DNA from: Undibacterium sp. Jales W-56
GTDB lineage: Bacteria; Pseudomonadota; Gammaproteobacteria; Burkholderiales; Burkholderiaceae_D
Assembly: GCF_025548535.1 (NCBI RefSeq)
Contig: NZ_JAJLQW010000001.1
Coordinates: forward strand, 372,001-436,000
Direction of reading: 5' to 3'
DNA: 64,000 nt
The translations under genes were made by a program, and so were the position numbers. Below are positions 1,762 to 9,827 of the stretch, piece after piece; the first letter of the stretch is position 1, and every line of letters starts with the position of its first letter. The notes below the pieces were generated by a model that saw nothing but the letters and a program-made list of their open reading frames with translations, had not been told where the DNA came from and did not search any database.

Positions 1762-1788
1762 GTTCCGGTCAGAGCACATATCCCAATC

Positions 1789-1797
1789 TGCTAAACT
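1789..1797 (+). promoter_or_regulatory. Repeat-embedded extended -10 promoter (first of 53 copies)
   Basis: Repeat positions 28-36 read TG-C-TAAACT, an extended -10 (TGn plus a hexamer with 4/6 match to TATAAT). It sits exactly where Neisseria meningitidis II-C repeats carry TGCTACAAT, which is known to drive individual crRNAs. If the last T is -7, transcription would start at spacer base 7 and leave 24 nt of guide, the length known for Neisseria crRNAs. The motif is present in every copy except repeat 29. Activity is inferred from this analogy. Confidence 0.6.
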
Positions 1798-3610
1798 TCT
1801 TTTGTTCGCCGTTCTCGGATGGTTCAGGTTCCGGTCAGAGCACATATCCCAATCTGCTAAACTTTTGCTCTTTGCCGTGTCGATGCTGCGTCGGTTCCGG
1901 TCAGAGCACATATCCCAATCTGCTAAACTTGATGCTCGCCACGGAAGATCGTGACCTCAGTTCCGGTCAGAGCACATATCCCAATCTGCTAAACTATCCA
2001 GTCAGAACAAGCGGCAAGCCGATCGGTTCCGGTCAGAGCACATATCCCAATCTGCTAAACTTTAACTCATGATCTATGGCTTCATGCATGCGTTCCGGTC
2101 AGAGCACATATCCCAATCTGCTAAACTAGAGTGTCTTGGCGGAGTTTGAGCGATGACGTTCCGGTCAGAGCACATATCCCAATCTGCTAAACTTTGCTTT
2201 TACTTCTTCCATGCTACCCCCTCGTTCCGGTCAGAGCACATATCCCAATCTGCTAAACTCTTTATTCATATTTGGACGATCACCACGTAGTTCCGGTCAG
2301 AGCACATATCCCAATCTGCTAAACTTTATTCCACCAATTATCGTTCGCCTGAAGAGTTCCGGTCAGAGCACATATCCCAATCTGCTAAACTTCAATGAGT
2401 TTATGAGAAAACATTCCCATTGGTTCCGGTCAGAGCACATATCCCAATCTGCTAAACTTCTGATCGTGGGCGGCGGCATCGCGGCGATGTTCCGGTCAGA
2501 GCACATATCCCAATCTGCTAAACTATCAAGCTGTTTAATCACATCTACCTCCCAGTTCCGGTCAGAGCACATATCCCAATCTGCTAAACTTTGAATCGCG
2601 TGCCGCATTGTACAAATCGAGTTCCGGTCAGAGCACATATCCCAATCTGCTAAACTATGGGGTCGCACCTACAGCTTGCCGGACAAGTTCCGGTCAGAGC
2701 ACATATCCCAATCTGCTAAACTACTCTCTCCTTGCTGCGCTTCTTCGTCAAAGTTCCGGTCAGAGCACATATCCCAATCTGCTAAACTAAAAACTACAGC
2801 AACAACAAAGTCAGCAGGGTTCCGGTCAGAGCACATATCCCAATCTGCTAAACTCATTGTACCGATTGGCTTTATCGCGGGCAGGTTCCGGTCAGAGCAC
2901 ATATCCCAATCTGCTAAACTATCCCAGATTAAGAGTAGTTCCTTGAATCCGTTCCGGTCAGAGCACATATCCCAATCTGCTAAACTCCACACGGTTATAA
3001 AGCAAGTGGTGGACGAGTTCCGGTCAGAGCACATATCCCAATCTGCTAAACTTCATCGCTTGAGTGAGGCTTCACGATTCTCGTTCCGGTCAGAGCACAT
3101 ATCCCAATCTGCTAAACTTGAATTACGCAGTACAAAAGAACCCACCAAGTTCCGGTCAGAGCACATATCCCAATCTGCTAAACTCTCAACGATCAGGCAG
3201 TTTCTCCAGCGATAGTTCCGGTCAGAGCACATATCCCAATCTGCTAAACTGCGCGACATGTTTTCGGTTGCTAATGACTAGTTCCGGTCAGAGCACATAT
3301 CCCAATCTGCTAAACTACAGGGTGCGCGCGCGATTGCTGCTGGCGGGTTCCGGTCAGAGCACATATCCCAATCTGCTAAACTTCGGCTATGCAGTAACAA
3401 GGGTGTCACCAGGTTCCGGTCAGAGCACATATCCCAATCTGCTAAACTTGTCTTGGTGTTCAGGTCCGCACCAAGCTGGTTCCGGTCAGAGCACATATCC
3501 CAATCTGCTAAACTCAAGTCAGCAATACAGCAAATGCAGTCGCAGTTCCGGTCAGAGCACATATCCCAATCTGCTAAACTCAATTCCGTCAACGATGTAT
3601 CGATCTCATT

Positions 3611-3646
3611 GTTCCGGTCAGAGCACATATCCCAATCTGCTAAACC
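3611..3646 (+). repeat. Variant CRISPR repeat number 29 (last base T to C)
   Basis: This is the only repeat that departs from consensus: it ends TAAACC instead of TAAACT. The change hits the most conserved T of the embedded -10 and the base bordering spacer 29 (3647-3676). It lies in mid-array, so it is not the usual degenerate terminal repeat. Confidence 0.85.
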
Positions 3647-5240
3647 GTACCTCTGTGTAGACAGTGGCCGCGATTGGTTCCGGTCAGAGCACATATCCCA
3701 ATCTGCTAAACTTATTGTCGCTGCTGCTAACGTCGTGCTCACGTTCCGGTCAGAGCACATATCCCAATCTGCTAAACTAGAACGGAGATTGATACCTTCG
3801 GCATGACCGTTCCGGTCAGAGCACATATCCCAATCTGCTAAACTTTCAAAGGGACTGTCTCAGTCGATGGCGCCGTTCCGGTCAGAGCACATATCCCAAT
3901 CTGCTAAACTTTGCACAATACCCACAGTATCGATATATTGGTTCCGGTCAGAGCACATATCCCAATCTGCTAAACTAAGTTATCCAGGCGATATTTCAAT
4001 CTAATGGTTCCGGTCAGAGCACATATCCCAATCTGCTAAACTCCGCATCGTAAACATGACCTGCGTTGCATGGTTCCGGTCAGAGCACATATCCCAATCT
4101 GCTAAACTGCTCGGCGAAGAAGATCAAGTAACCTTCGAGTTCCGGTCAGAGCACATATCCCAATCTGCTAAACTTTGATACAAATAATCAAATATCACAA
4201 TCCTGTTCCGGTCAGAGCACATATCCCAATCTGCTAAACTCATTTCTGTTTTTCCTTTATCACCCGAAAGGTTCCGGTCAGAGCACATATCCCAATCTGC
4301 TAAACTTAAAGGAGAATTATCATGAAATCAATTATCGTTCCGGTCAGAGCACATATCCCAATCTGCTAAACTTACAGCGACTTAGACCGCATCGTTGAAG
4401 AGTTCCGGTCAGAGCACATATCCCAATCTGCTAAACTCAGATCGCGTCGGCAGAGCAATGGATAGGAGTTCCGGTCAGAGCACATATCCCAATCTGCTAA
4501 ACTCTCGTCGCGGAATTCCACGTGGCGGAATCCGTTCCGGTCAGAGCACATATCCCAATCTGCTAAACTTGCAGTACCAACCACTACCTTATCTGCGCCG
4601 TTCCGGTCAGAGCACATATCCCAATCTGCTAAACTCCATTACCATGCAACGTATCGAATATTTGCGTTCCGGTCAGAGCACATATCCCAATCTGCTAAAC
4701 TTCCATCTGCATGCACGAAAGAGGGAAACATGTTCCGGTCAGAGCACATATCCCAATCTGCTAAACTTGATGCTAGCCACGGAAGATCGTGACCTCAGTT
4801 CCGGTCAGAGCACATATCCCAATCTGCTAAACTCGTCCTCGATCGCCTCACGGCGGCGGTTACGTTCCGGTCAGAGCACATATCCCAATCTGCTAAACTA
4901 TTCACCCCAAGTTCAATAGAACCAGTTAAGTTCCGGTCAGAGCACATATCCCAATCTGCTAAACTTAATTCGAAATACTTAGCTATGTTGGAACAGTTCC
5001 GGTCAGAGCACATATCCCAATCTGCTAAACTTAATCGTGCGTGGCAATTCAACTTCCTGCAGTTCCGGTCAGAGCACATATCCCAATCTGCTAAACTATA
5101 TACGTGTTTTTGTGGCAGGTAGTAAAGGTTCCGGTCAGAGCACATATCCCAATCTGCTAAACTGCAATCCGTCAATATCAACAGGCGGTAACAGTTCCGG
5201 TCAGAGCACATATCCCAATCTGCTAAACTCGTAACACCAT

Positions 5241-5276
5241 AAGCCCCTGATTATTCAGGGGTTTATGCTTTTTTGA
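5241..5276 (+). terminator. Rho-independent terminator of the CRISPR array
   Basis: CCCCTGA (5244-5250), loop TTAT, TCAGGGG (5255-5261), followed by TTTATGCTTTTTT. It starts 11 bp after the last repeat. The T tract lies only on the + strand side, supporting + strand array transcription that stops before cas2, which converges from the other side. Confidence 0.75.
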
Positions 5277-5299
5277 GGCGGGGGAAATGCGTTTTTTTA

Positions 5300-5626
5300 T
5301 CAAAATAAGTCGAATTGATCTGGGGATTTATTAGGGGCTTGTTTCGCTTTTCCACGAAAAGTGATGATACGTTCGTATTGTTTGTCCGTAAATTGTAGGA
5401 TATTCACTTTGCCGCCGCTAGGTAAGTTTTGCTCTACCCGTTTGCAATACGTATCTACTTGAGTTTGGCTGGTACAAAAGCGCATGTACACAGAAAATTG
5501 CGACATTTCAAACCCCATGTCGAGTAAGGAGTTGCGAAATTCGCTTGCTGCTTTACGCTCAGATTTTTCTATCACAGGTAAATCAAACATCACCACAATC
5601 CACATGATGCGATATCCGGTAAGCAT
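5300..5626 (-). CDS. cas2: CRISPR-associated endonuclease Cas2 (type II)
   Basis: 108 aa from the ATG at 5626, or 101 aa from the in-frame ATG at 5605, which gives MWIVVMFDLPV, the usual Cas2 N-terminus with the DLP motif of the first ferredoxin-like strand. The rest (FRNSLLDMGFEMSQFSVYMRF, then ILQFTDKQYERII) matches type II Cas2. With Cas1 it forms the integrase that inserts new spacers. It starts 6 bp after the cas1 stop codon and is the last gene of the cas9-cas1-cas2 operon. The upstream ATG lies closer to a weak GACGAG, so the true start is undecided. Confidence 0.93.
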   Translation of the reverse strand: MLTGYRIMWIVVMFDLPVIEKSERKAASEFRNSLLDMGFEMSQFSVYMRFCTSQTQVDTYCKRVEQNLPSGGKVNILQFTDKQYERIITFRGKAKQAPNKSPDQFDLF

Positions 5627-5632
5627 GGCGCA

Positions 5633-6562
5633 TTACTCGTCTTGCAGAGCTGAGGCCAAATTGAGGGGCAGGCCAGGTAAAGGCAAATCCAGCTTATCTT
5701 TTTCACCGATAAATATTTGAGCCAACGATATTGCAAGTTTTTGTGTGCAGACAATAACAGGTGTGACACCGACATTAGTTTGCATATCGTCATACATGGT
5801 GCGAACTAATGCGCGCTTACTTTCCGGTGTGATAGAACTCTCGCCTTGCTTATGCAACTGCCAAACTTTGAGATCAATCATTGGGCGAAAGGGTTCCATC
5901 AAATCATCGACTAGGCGCATTGCGTTACCTTGATTACTATGATGTAGTCCCATCGTCGGATGCAGACCCGCAGCGACAACAGCACGCGCTGTTGTCGCAC
6001 GCAAGACGGTGTAGCCATAGTTGAGCATGGAATTCAAACCAGTAGATTGCTGGTCACGCCTAAAGTCGTCACCAAATAAAAGGCTCCAATAACGACGTGC
6101 TCCTTGCGCTTCAAAATTGTCTGGGTCGCCCGAACGCACTTTGCGCACCAAGGACGATAAAGGGATGCTGGCAACGTTGGCCGCTTCTAAGGCTGTTGCT
6201 TGTTGCTGTAGTTTTGATTTAACGATATCTGCCCATAATCGTTTGATAGTGGGTTGAGATGCAGCAAGTTGTGCGTCAAAACGTTTGGCTTGCTGGAAGT
6301 TACCTTCGATTGGTAATAGCATACCAGCGGCATTATGGTTCGCTGCACACAGCACAAAAGGTGCGCAGCGTTCCGCTAAGGCGATCAGTAAATTATTGGT
6401 ATAACTCAAGCCATGTGCATTTGCAATGACCGCAGCGATATCATCCAATGGCACTTGTCCTAGCTCTTTACGTTGGCCTTCAGTATCCTGCACCACCATA
6501 AAGCCGCGTGATAGAAATAAATGTCGGCGGTCATCAGCTATTTCTACTATGCGGCCTATCAT
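5633..6562 (-). CDS. cas1: CRISPR-associated endonuclease Cas1 (type II)
   Basis: 309 aa, normal for type II-C Cas1. The N-terminal beta domain is followed by an alpha-helical catalytic domain. The expected metal ligands are visible: Glu at about 151 in NFEAQGARRYW, His at about 207 in HPTMGLHHSNQGN, and the acidic pair in LVDDLMEPFRP (about 219-223). Cas1 is the spacer-integration nuclease and works with Cas2; in type II, Cas9 and tracrRNA help select PAM-flanked spacers. It starts 5 bp after the cas9 stop, so it is translated from the same message. All catalytic positions look intact. Confidence 0.96.
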   Translation of the reverse strand: MIGRIVEIADDRRHLFLSRGFMVVQDTEGQRKELGQVPLDDIAAVIANAHGLSYTNNLLIALAERCAPFVLCAANHNAAGMLLPIEGNFQQAKRFDAQLAASQPTIKRLWADIVKSKLQQQATALEAANVASIPLSSLVRKVRSGDPDNFEAQGARRYWSLLFGDDFRRDQQSTGLNSMLNYGYTVLRATTARAVVAAGLHPTMGLHHSNQGNAMRLVDDLMEPFRPMIDLKVWQLHKQGESSITPESKRALVRTMYDDMQTNVGVTPVIVCTQKLAISLAQIFIGEKDKLDLPLPGLPLNLASALQDE

Positions 6563-6567
6563 GGTAT

Positions 6568-9500
6568 TTATACCTTAAAACCGGGATCACGAAGCTCACC
6601 TAGTGGAGATATTTTCACCATTCTTCCTTTTGCTTTTTGTAGTGAGCCTGCATACTTAGATATGTAACCAAAAGCCTCTTCTTTGCTCCTGTTTCTAGCA
6701 TCAACATTAGCCTCATTAATACCAGCCATAAAAATTTGCCCATTGGTACTAATGGTTACAACTCTAGCCGATTGTTGAACGCCATCTATTTCTAACCTAA
6801 CAAAGTCATCTATCATTAATCGCATTACCAACGGTTTTCCGGAAAGACTTTGAGTCAAATCACGCAGTCGCTTAATTCCTGAATTACGTACAAGTTGGTA
6901 AGCGTCAAATGTTGATACAACCTCTCCTTCCCATTTACCTTTTTCATTGCGAATTATCTCAATGCAATAGTTACTATCTCCTTTATATCCTTTGTAAGGC
7001 TTAGGTTCTCCATTAGGTTTTACTCCGTGCCGATCACTTACCTTGATATCAGTAAATTCAATGACCTTGAGCTTATCTTCAATGCGAGTGCGTTTGCCAT
7101 CAACTATCTTATGTACTCGAACTTTGCCATTGCCGAGTAAACTGTAAGCAGTATCATTATGCATCGCGCCCTCGTGGCTATGATCCGGTTTGTGGCTCAC
7201 CCAAATTCGTTGTATCGCACGTTCAACATGTTCGCGATAAGTATCCCAAGGTAAAGGCATATTCTCGACAAGCCGATTGAGTTGTTTTTCTCTTGCACTG
7301 GCACTTGCTTGCGCAAACCGTTGCATTAAACTTTGATCTGTAACCCCGATAACACAAGCATCAACTGCGTGATGTCGATGGTCGTTACGATTTTTTTCGC
7401 CATTGAGCCCAAGTACATTATTCAAACCAAATTTTGCACGCAACATGGCAGTCATTTGTCCAGGTATAACACGTGTATTTGGGCAAATCAATTGAACATA
7501 TTCACGTGCTATTTTGCTGAGATAGCGTGTATCATTAAGTGCCCTAGCCAAAAATCCCGCATCATCCTTTAGCCATCGTTGATAACCATCCTCTGCAAAG
7601 CGATATCGCTTCGCTTTAGGCATTTGTTCTGCTCGGGCGAGTATGTCGGCATAAGAAAATCCTGCTATCTCTTGTTTGCCAAACGCATCCCAAGGAGTAT
7701 TGTTGCCTTTAACTCGGTTAGCCTGGCGAAGTGCCACAGTCTTATTGTTGAGACTGTCATCTAGCGTGATAGAGAATGGCAATATATGCTCAATTTCAAC
7801 TTCGTTGCTGAGCAACATGTGAGCGCTGATTTGAACGCCTGAGTATGGACAGCGACGATCTGCTGGATCAAAACTGAGCTCTTCCCACAGAAGCATTTTT
7901 TGTAAATCAGCACCTTTTACTTGTTCTTCGTTGATCTGTAAAATTTTCGCGACGTCGGTACGCAAGCGTGCATTACGTTTTTGATTTTCTGCTTGACGTT
8001 TGTTGGCGTCGTCCCGCTGATCTCTACTTTGCTTAAGATCGCGTGCGACTTCCACGATAATTTCATTAGGGTGCCCATAGCGTTTAATTAGTGCATTAAC
8101 GACTAATCTGACCTGGTTCAGTCCTATATGAACAGTTGGGTTTGCTATACGTCCATAACGTTTTTCATCAGTATCATTTGGATTGCCTGTACCGAATCCT
8201 ACATGGCGTTGTAGCGGCTGCCCGTAATAAGGAAGCTCTAATAAAATCTCACCTGTGGCTGATGCACTAATATTGCTATGGTGTGCGAAGCCTGCTGCCA
8301 ATACCGCTTTGTCGTAAGTTATAACGTTTTTTCTTAACTCTGGAAGTATGCGGTTCAGCGCTTGTATACTAAGACTTCCATATCCCTCTGGTAAACCAAC
8401 GTTGGCAATGACTTCCGCACGTTCTTCGTCTATACCCGTTTCAGCAACAAGCCAGCGCATTAATTTTGCGAGATTTTCTTCCGTCACCAATTGATGCACT
8501 ATAGCGTCTTGTTTGTTTTCGTCGAGAGAAAACCATACTTTTCCAAAGTGATCAGATTTGCTGAGAATCGCGCTTGTAGTATTGCCTTTAAGTTCCTGGC
8601 GTTTCGCATCTTCAATATTAAATATAATGGAGCCTAAGCCAAGCAATTTCGTTATTTGGGTGAATGAACGTTTGCTGTTCTCTTCTAGAGCCGCCACAAT
8701 CACGTCTCGTTGCTGAATAGTTAAAGATTCTTCTTTGAGACCTGCACGCAATATTCTAAGGTTATTTACTTCTTGATAGATACGGAAGCGCTGTGTACTT
8801 GGTAGTGCGAGTGGCGCGCGCATCTCGTCTGGCAGCAGCGTGCAGCGACCAGGTTTGACAGGTTTGAGTGGACGCTGAAATAACAACGCATCTTTCAAAT
8901 CTACTTTAGCTGTTTCGTTAAAAAGTGTCGGGTTGAATATGGTTTGTTTTTGCCATAATGCTTCAAATTCAGTCTCAATCATAGCTCTGTCGATATATAG
9001 ATCGTAGCTTTTATCGATGCGAGTTTTTCCGTCATCCCTTGTGACTTTATTTTCACGTAAGCGGGCACGCACAGTTTTGCCTAAGCTGTCTCGTTTATGT
9101 AGCCATTCACCTACTGTGCGACAGTTTTCTTCAATAAGCGTTGACCGCAATTTATTAATTGCAGTTTTTAGAGATCCGCTGTCATTATCTTTTTTATCGG
9201 TCTTACGATTACTTTTAAAGCCACGTCGCTGATTGATATGAAAGAGTGCGCGAGCAAATTCTTCTGGTCTTAGCATTTCATCCAAGCCCTTGGCTCGCAG
9301 TGTATAAGGGTTGAGTGTTTCTAATTCTTTACGTGATTGTTCGTCAGTTGGAAAGAATCCATGTTCAATGAGTGATTTGGTCATTCGTGCTTTTCGTTTC
9401 AATAAACGATCGCGACGACGACGCATGGCACGTGCCTCGCGGCGAGTAACTGCAAGCGATGATCCATCTTTGGGGCTGCGGCCATCTGAGAAAATACGAA

Positions 9501-9621
9501 CGCCCGCTTTGATAACAGCTATCGGAGAAGGCGGGGTCTCATTATTCAGCCTGATCATTGCCCAACCCAAAGAAGTTGATCCTAAATCTAGTGCCAATCG
9601 ATAAGCCATTTTGCCGAGCAT
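6568..9621 (-). CDS. cas9: Cas9 endonuclease, type II-C
   Basis: 1017 aa, a compact Cas9 in the II-C size range. RuvC-I: LALDLGSTSLGWA with Asp12. An Arg-rich bridge helix follows (RREARAMRRRRDRLLKRKAR). RuvC-II: IIVEVARDL with Glu524. HNH: CPYSGVQI, then VEIEHILPFS with His612, and NKTVALRQANRVKGN. RuvC-III: DHRHHAVDA with His751 and Asp754. All nuclease residues are present, so double-strand cleavage is expected. The start at 9621 has AAAGGG about 6 bases upstream; a second ATG at 9609 (MAYRLALDLG) is possible. The C-terminal PAM-interacting part cannot be read for PAM preference. The region looks more AT-rich than its neighbours, which suggests acquisition by transfer. Confidence 0.97.
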   Translation of the reverse strand: MLGKMAYRLALDLGSTSLGWAMIRLNNETPPSPIAVIKAGVRIFSDGRSPKDGSSLAVTRREARAMRRRRDRLLKRKARMTKSLIEHGFFPTDEQSRKELETLNPYTLRAKGLDEMLRPEEFARALFHINQRRGFKSNRKTDKKDNDSGSLKTAINKLRSTLIEENCRTVGEWLHKRDSLGKTVRARLRENKVTRDDGKTRIDKSYDLYIDRAMIETEFEALWQKQTIFNPTLFNETAKVDLKDALLFQRPLKPVKPGRCTLLPDEMRAPLALPSTQRFRIYQEVNNLRILRAGLKEESLTIQQRDVIVAALEENSKRSFTQITKLLGLGSIIFNIEDAKRQELKGNTTSAILSKSDHFGKVWFSLDENKQDAIVHQLVTEENLAKLMRWLVAETGIDEERAEVIANVGLPEGYGSLSIQALNRILPELRKNVITYDKAVLAAGFAHHSNISASATGEILLELPYYGQPLQRHVGFGTGNPNDTDEKRYGRIANPTVHIGLNQVRLVVNALIKRYGHPNEIIVEVARDLKQSRDQRDDANKRQAENQKRNARLRTDVAKILQINEEQVKGADLQKMLLWEELSFDPADRRCPYSGVQISAHMLLSNEVEIEHILPFSITLDDSLNNKTVALRQANRVKGNNTPWDAFGKQEIAGFSYADILARAEQMPKAKRYRFAEDGYQRWLKDDAGFLARALNDTRYLSKIAREYVQLICPNTRVIPGQMTAMLRAKFGLNNVLGLNGEKNRNDHRHHAVDACVIGVTDQSLMQRFAQASASAREKQLNRLVENMPLPWDTYREHVERAIQRIWVSHKPDHSHEGAMHNDTAYSLLGNGKVRVHKIVDGKRTRIEDKLKVIEFTDIKVSDRHGVKPNGEPKPYKGYKGDSNYCIEIIRNEKGKWEGEVVSTFDAYQLVRNSGIKRLRDLTQSLSGKPLVMRLMIDDFVRLEIDGVQQSARVVTISTNGQIFMAGINEANVDARNRSKEEAFGYISKYAGSLQKAKGRMVKISPLGELRDPGFKV

Positions 9622-9647
9622 GTCAGTCCCTTTGTTGTTATAACAAA

Positions 9648-9676
9648 TTGACTCTACAATAAGATCAGGCTATTAT
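9648..9676 (+). promoter_or_regulatory. tracrRNA promoter
   Basis: TTGACT (9648-9653), a 17-bp spacer, then TATTAT (9671-9676), each 5/6 to the sigma-70 consensus. The predicted start is near 9683, five bases before the anti-repeat. The promoter lies inside the 5' region of cas9 and is divergent from it, so the two promoters probably overlap. Confidence 0.75.
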
Positions 9677-9682
9677 TCAAGC

Positions 9683-9770
9683 ACTATCAGATTGGGATAT
9701 GTGCTTTGGACGCTAACAAGCTGAAAGATGCACCAAATGAAAAGGCCACTATATGTGGCCTTTTGCTTTT
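9683..9770 (+). ncRNA. tracrRNA
   Basis: Bases 9688-9705 (CAGATTGGGATATGTGCT) are the exact reverse complement of repeat positions 12-29. Pairing extends a few more bases through G-U pairs. A short linker with small hairpin potential follows (GCT-AACA-AGC at 9712-9721), then a strong terminator hairpin. Predicted length is about 88 nt. The RNA pairs with the 5' part of the repeat in the pre-crRNA and is bound by Cas9. Position next to cas9, at the opposite end from the array, is common in II-C loci. The exact 5' and 3' ends are predicted. Confidence 0.9.
9740..9770 (+). terminator. tracrRNA terminator
   Basis: Perfect 10-bp stem AAAAGGCCAC (9740-9749) / GTGGCCTTTT (9755-9764) with loop TATAT, followed by GCTTTTT. 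It serves both as 3' hairpin of the tracrRNA and as a stop before the exonuclease gene. Confidence 0.88.
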
Positions 9771-9827
9771 TAAATGCCACAAAAAATTCGCTCTTATGTC
9801 GCCAATATGCCCTGTATCATAGGACGC

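Follow-up and report, generated by a model that had tools for sequence, protein, structure and literature searches.

A complete type II-C CRISPR-Cas9 locus in Undibacterium sp. Jales W-56 with a predicted NGCNNT motif and a conserved hairpin beside cas2

A 64,000-nucleotide stretch of the genome of Undibacterium sp. Jales W-56 (contig NZ_JAJLQW010000001.1, positions 372,001 to 436,000; hereafter the window) carries what we read, with a probability of roughly 0.8, as a complete and ordinary type II-C locus of clustered regularly interspaced short palindromic repeats (CRISPR), the array of which grows on the side of cas2 and the Cas9 of which has the protospacer-adjacent motif (PAM) NGCNNT. The parts of the locus, the conserved hairpin in its leader, the signs of polarity in its array and the flank motif are observed directly in the DNA. 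In window coordinates, the features are:

1762..5229, plus strand: CRISPR array of 53 repeats and 52 spacers; the sense of the CRISPR RNA is the plus strand, as fixed by the anti-repeat
5098..5193, plus strand: spacers 51 and 52 with the intervening repeat, likely the latest to be acquired; a single phage group is matched by both
5238..5274, plus strand: leader hairpin and predicted array terminator, beside cas2; stem at 5238–5267, T run to 5274
5300..5626, minus strand: cas2, 108 amino acids (aa), TIGR01573
5633..6562, minus strand: cas1 of type II (NMENI), 309 aa, TIGR03639
6568..9621, minus strand: cas9, 1017 aa, TIGR01865, with D12, E524, H612, N635, H750 and D754
9648..9676, plus strand: predicted promoter-like boxes of the trans-activating CRISPR RNA (tracrRNA), TTGACT (9648–9653) and TATTAT (9671–9676), 17 nucleotides (nt) apart
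9682..9771, plus strand: tracrRNA with predicted ends, comprising the anti-repeat core (9682–9705), a conserved core and a terminator (9740–9771)

The array is not a product of chance, because it holds 53 near-perfect repeats. The 36-nt repeat (GTTCCGGTCAGAGCACATATCCCAATCTGCTAAACT) is identical in 52 of its 53 copies, with repeat 29 differing only in its last base; the spacers measure 30 nt in 50 cases, 31 nt in one and 29 nt in one. A whole-genome search located the array once in the 4.19 Mb. The reading frames of cas2, cas1 and cas9 are uninterrupted and all three products score above the curated cut-offs of their NCBIfam families. The six Cas9 residues listed, the catalytic roles of which we take over from known Cas9s, are invariant across 30 aligned Cas9s. 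The tracrRNA is divergent from cas9, its anti-repeat pairs with the repeat over about 20 bp, and its core is found again in relatives at the sequence level; Rfam gave no match in the window at gathering scores. No csn2, cas4 or other cas family was found among the proteins scanned in or beside the locus (seven proteins with NCBIfam and six with Pfam), and the Cas9d model NF049971 scored 109.9 bits, below its cut-off of 375. A maximum-likelihood tree of 20 Cas9s, with four II-A rows and no II-B row, places the window Cas9 among nine rows of its clade with support of 100/100 (eight betaproteobacterial rows and gammaproteobacterium HdN1, adjoined by three alphaproteobacterial rows). II-A is represented by four rows, which cluster apart from these, again with 100/100; an annotated csn2 is present for one of them, and the other three are taken as II-A. 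Gene content and this tree, which lacks II-B rows, support the assignment to type II-C. A preliminary description of the locus had listed its 52 spacers, Cas1, Cas2, 1017-aa Cas9 with all nuclease residues and tracrRNA, had noted the lack of csn2 and cas4, and had derived class II-C from a gene content of cas9, cas1 and cas2 only; these statements are borne out, and the Cas9 falls outside the II-A group.

The array likely grows at its 3´ end, on the side of cas2 and just before a terminator-like hairpin of its own. We draw this from the degeneration of the distal repeat together with the conservation of the cas2-side flank and its hairpin. Among 49 complete arrays, the cas2-distal (5´) repeat is the more degenerate end in 29 and the cas2-side repeat in one, with the ends being equal in 19, including the window. 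The single exception (locus L145, in genome G046 with two array places) is likely a script artefact. The cas2-side flank is conserved and aligns gap-free across 63 loci; the distal flank has no conservation (47 loci). The leader hairpin is a stem of 13 bp that stands at a constant distance from the last repeat in the 63 loci. Standard pairs fill 80.3% of its cells vs at most 72.8% in 1000 shuffles, the double-changed cells number 81 vs at most 42 in the same shuffles, a covariation count inflated by the relatedness of the loci, and all six slid versions of the hairpin score lower. According to the available parts of two reports, II-C arrays are transcribed from the repeats toward the variable end, with new spacers acquired at the last repeat and mutations found in the oldest one, much like the arrays compared here (PMC8092290; PMC12080349), and part of a third describes insertion beside cas2 in Riemerella (PMC6008519). 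The same portions of the first two reports place hairpins or terminators at the old, upstream end, whereas the fixed hairpin of the window is found at the leader end.

The odds are somewhat in favor of this hairpin being a mere intrinsic terminator with no part in spacer insertion, as suggested by the run of at least four T behind the stem in 52 of the 63 loci. However, such a run is missing in the other 11, and the gap-free, fixed distance to the last repeat would be unexpected. Four Nitrosomonas loci (L011, L012, L046 and L070) keep the leader hairpin with no T run of this length.

With growth on the cas2 side, spacer 52 would be the newest because insertion would take place between the last repeat and the leader hairpin, and spacers 51 and 52 are likely the two newest, as might result from a single encounter with a phage. 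The target of spacer 52 is the primase/helicase gene in Septimatrevirus-like phages, matched with at least two mismatches (18 distinct sites, 2–6 mismatches), and spacer 51 matches four viral loci also matched by spacer 52 (L128, L130, L168 and L171). The recent activity proposed in the preliminary description thereby gains indirect support, in that the likely newest spacers match the same viral contigs. Spacer 30 has two sites, with 4–5 mismatches.

The flanks of matched sites point to NGCNNT as the likely PAM of the window Cas9. The larger part of this prediction comes from Undibacterium sp. RTI2.1, whose Cas9 is 93% identical to that of the window and whose array matches its own genome with 17 of 42 spacers at 0–4 mismatches, six of them perfectly (a lower bound, from selected stretches compared base by base with 6 of 23 candidates scored). 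In these 17 flanks, C is found at +3 in 16, T at +6 in 16, G at +2 in 14 and G at +5 in 10; at two mismatches or fewer, C+3 and T+6 each occur in 13 of 14. Among the viral sites matched by window spacers, C+3 is present at 17 and T+6 at all 18 sites of spacer 52, and both are present at all four sites of spacer 51. The repeat begins with GTTCCG, which lacks C at +3 and T at +6, and the array would thus escape its own guides. In Acidovorax sp. MR-S7, the flanks of 13 spacers with up to three mismatches (from fetched stretches, two of the 13 sharing one site and one being chromosomal) have G or A at +3 in 12, T at +5 in nine, T at +6 in 10 and C or T at +7 in 13. The predicted PAM is here approximately NNRNTT, and the base called for at +3 seems to vary among members of the clade. 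A literature search for these PAM strings together with Cas9 found nothing. The suggestion of the preliminary description that the Cas9 has a PAM of its own stands as a prediction, mainly via the Cas9 of RTI2.1.

Several points weigh against this reading. The II-C placement was made without any II-B reference in the tree. The PAM is based mostly on another genome, RTI2.1, where spacer 42 has a perfect match with the flank AGTGGG; a one-mismatch site of RTI2.1 spacer 27 in a third genome has the flank GGTGTT. As for the window itself, 48 of its 52 spacers are unmatched in the viral and prophage stretches compared, the 18 sites of spacer 52 represent one conserved gene and hence one observation, and spacer 51 matches only at 5–6 mismatches. 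When the window spacers were searched for a common 3´ flank, as had been proposed at the outset, spacers 51 and 52 fitted NGCNNT and spacer 30 did not; its two sites have C at +3 but C at +6. Finally, perfectly matched prophages persist in two relatives, which an unhindered Cas9 should not allow.

These prophages came to light when the arrays of five genomes (the window, RTI2.1, U. hunanense, MR-S7 and Diaphorobacter aerolatus) were compared with their own genomes, two of which, RTI2.1 and MR-S7, have self-matched prophages. In RTI2.1, 16 of the 17 self-matching spacers, including five of the six perfect ones, fall in one prophage-like region at approximately 1.174–1.210 Mb (genes named by eye, the integrase by library match), and the seventeenth falls in the intein-like part of an NrdA-like open reading frame at 1.091 Mb. 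The closer a spacer lies to cas2, the fewer mismatches it tends to have (Spearman -0.66, p 0.004), which fits newer spacers coming from this prophage or close kin, and the cas genes and tracrRNA are intact. RTI2.1 spacer 29 matches perfectly within the intein-like portion of an NrdA-like frame of 1130 aa (L216, 9687–13079), with the flank TTCAAT. In MR-S7, 14 of 98 spacers match the genome with up to five mismatches (30 of 73 candidates scored). Thirteen of these matches lie in a 42-kb region (contig C7, 209533–251878), taken as a prophage, and the remaining one hits a chromosomal gene resembling a regulator. Of the seven perfect matches, six are in the 42-kb region, four of these six with NNRNTT, and the chromosomal one has CATCGA. 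Spacers 23 and 89 of this array share one target site. U. hunanense, with 6 of 9 candidates scored, has one match besides its array and anti-repeat, a perfect one with the flank GCCTAC; it falls in a gene that is conserved across the genus and, by eye, resembles NrdA. This chromosomal gene (L243), matched without a PAM, has homologues in L227–L231, L233, L234 and L238. D. aerolatus gave no self-match at E ≤0.001. The situation differs in Flavobacterium columnare, where II-C spacers that target their own genome are almost always without a PAM, according to the available part of the report (PMC8092290).

The most economical explanation is that the RTI2.1 prophage is protected in some way, and undescribed anti-CRISPRs are suggested because the prophages survive behind apparently good PAMs. 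A broader possibility, to which we give a little less than an even chance, is that phages of Betaproteobacteria carry an undescribed set of anti-CRISPRs that disarms the whole clade of compact II-C Cas9s, given that two hosts, which belong to different families and have different predicted PAMs, each retain a prophage to which 13–16 spacers of the host's own array correspond. One candidate is found in RTI2.1:

1,210,289–1,211,267, minus strand: candidate operon of four genes encoding 80, 84, 76 and 72 aa, the 72-aa product being a helix-turn-helix protein

The operon is situated between lysis-like and integrase-like genes and resembles an acr-aca operon; as an inhibitor it is a lead only, and weakly supported. 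Comparison of the operon with PHROGs, Pfam and NCBIfam, and of all four proteins with PDB, libraries that may miss many anti-CRISPR families, returned no named anti-CRISPR, and nothing naming the operon was found with the 84-aa and helix-turn-helix proteins in viral contigs or with the 84- and 76-aa proteins in phages. The protein database lists two members for the 84-aa protein, one of them being the protein itself. Relatives of the helix-turn-helix protein occur in four other genomes of the family, the three of these that were scanned for cas9 giving no match to it, and the prophage regions of RTI2.1 and MR-S7 have no convincing small protein in common. All three observations, the failure to match a named anti-CRISPR, the relatives in genomes without cas9 and the want of a common protein, would agree with a Cas9 that is simply off, through weak expression or a missing factor, and with no anti-CRISPR at work. 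We consider this explanation somewhat less likely than not, since the cas genes and tracrRNA of RTI2.1 are intact and its spacers nearest to the prophage sequence sit toward the presumed new end, as if adaptation had continued.

The persistence of the targets bears on the motif as well. Because NGCNNT derives from spacers with targets that survive alongside them in one genome, it reports acquisition rather than cutting, and it could be a spacer-selection motif next to a cutting PAM that is looser or different. This is unlikely in our view. Acquisition in type II systems is guided by Cas9's own PAM reading, and the perfect chromosomal self-matches lack the motifs (GCCTAC in U. hunanense, CATCGA in MR-S7), as if motif-bearing ones had been lost.

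Taking NGCNNT as the PAM of a complete II-C locus, we infer transcription, adaptation, PAM use and cutting from the sequence. The predicted role of the tracrRNA is to pair with the repeat and load Cas9. Cas1-Cas2 would likely extend the array at its 3´ end, placing each new spacer after the last repeat and ahead of the leader hairpin next to cas2, and the array would be spared from its own guides by a repeat start outside the PAM. That the locus is instead a relic, with its sequence complete but its expression and spacer uptake at an end and its array recording old encounters only, would suit the 48 spacers unmatched in the stretches compared but is quite improbable in view of the uninterrupted genes and tracrRNA, the 52 identical repeats, the intact catalytic residues and the match of spacers 51 and 52 to one phage group.

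Other searches with the spacers gave little. The window genome has no self-match beyond chance (eight matches outside the array at E ≥0.149, the best being the anti-repeat), and 392 genomes of the family have only short spacer matches outside arrays and anti-repeats, with a match of spacer 30 in RTI2.1. A set of 80 viral loci gave only the second site of spacer 30, at five mismatches, and a match of spacer 20 in L371 that has six mismatches and is probably chance. Weak matches of spacers 11 and 41 in cellular DNA (L099 and L107) were treated as chance, and seven plasmid records besides a Limnohabitans array, six at spacer 11 and one around spacer 18, were not convincing; spacer 11 encodes, by eye, a common glycine-rich motif. 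Klebsiella phage matches to spacer 38 were dropped as alignments over 22 bases, as was the idea of a repeat-like flank at the phage matches of spacer 52, the alignment of which has a 2-base gap. Spacers 3 (1930–1959) and 46 (4768–4797) are one base apart in sequence and 43 units apart in the array; no target of either was found in the viral contigs searched (0 contigs). The arrays of RTI2.1 and Diaphorobacter caeni matched no phage.

The class is ordinary because the clade is large: 5537 Cas9 homologues were found at E ≤0.001 among 7998 candidates scored. The clade is also widespread, with 78 distinct loci retained from genomes of species that are, by their titles, mostly Betaproteobacteria. 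Within the genus, a cas9 match is present in seven of 43 genomes, two of which have only fragments. What seems to be a decayed locus survives in one genome (G011) as a repeat-like piece and a cas9 tail of 36 residues; in another (G042), a repeat-like stretch stands alone and cas9 gave no match. The contribution of the analysis lies in the leader hairpin, the predicted PAM and two hosts with self-matching spacers, in which inhibitors of this clade can be sought directly. The clade comprises Cas9s of about 1,000 residues with differing predicted PAMs, NGCNNT in the window and approximately NNRNTT in MR-S7, and natural hosts with spacers matching their own prophages are places to look for inhibitors.

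Novelty is lower than first suggested, given thousands of Cas9 homologues and a Bordetella II-C locus of the same layout that was described in 2015, according to the available part of the report (PMC4624362). A literature search pairing Undibacterium with CRISPR returned no paper on such a locus, judged by titles, and the main text of a Cas9 catalogue, in its available part, does not name the four genera looked for. Among solved structures, Cas9 chains in PDB (such as 21dz, 9ar4 and 6jdq, under the generic name Cas9) align with the RuvC and HNH stretches of the window Cas9 at 230 bits at best over separate stretches, and none is a close relative. The BpsuCas9 locus of Bordetella pseudohinzii is like the window by description, with cas9-cas1-cas2, a divergent tracrRNA, 36-nt repeats, spacers of 29–30 nt and a terminal repeat with three changes; unlike the window, its authors tentatively proposed a WGR PAM from eight protospacers (PMC4624362, in the part available). 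The II-C locus of Limnohabitans sp. TEGF004 has the same layout and a Cas9 71% identical to that of the window, but is carried on a 149-kb plasmid, pTEGF4. The closest system is that of Undibacterium sp. RTI2.1, which has the same gene order, repeat, tracrRNA and leader hairpin, with identities of 93% for Cas9, 97% for Cas1 and 100% for Cas2, and differs from the window in its spacers, a set of 42 others that includes 17 with matches in the RTI2.1 genome itself.

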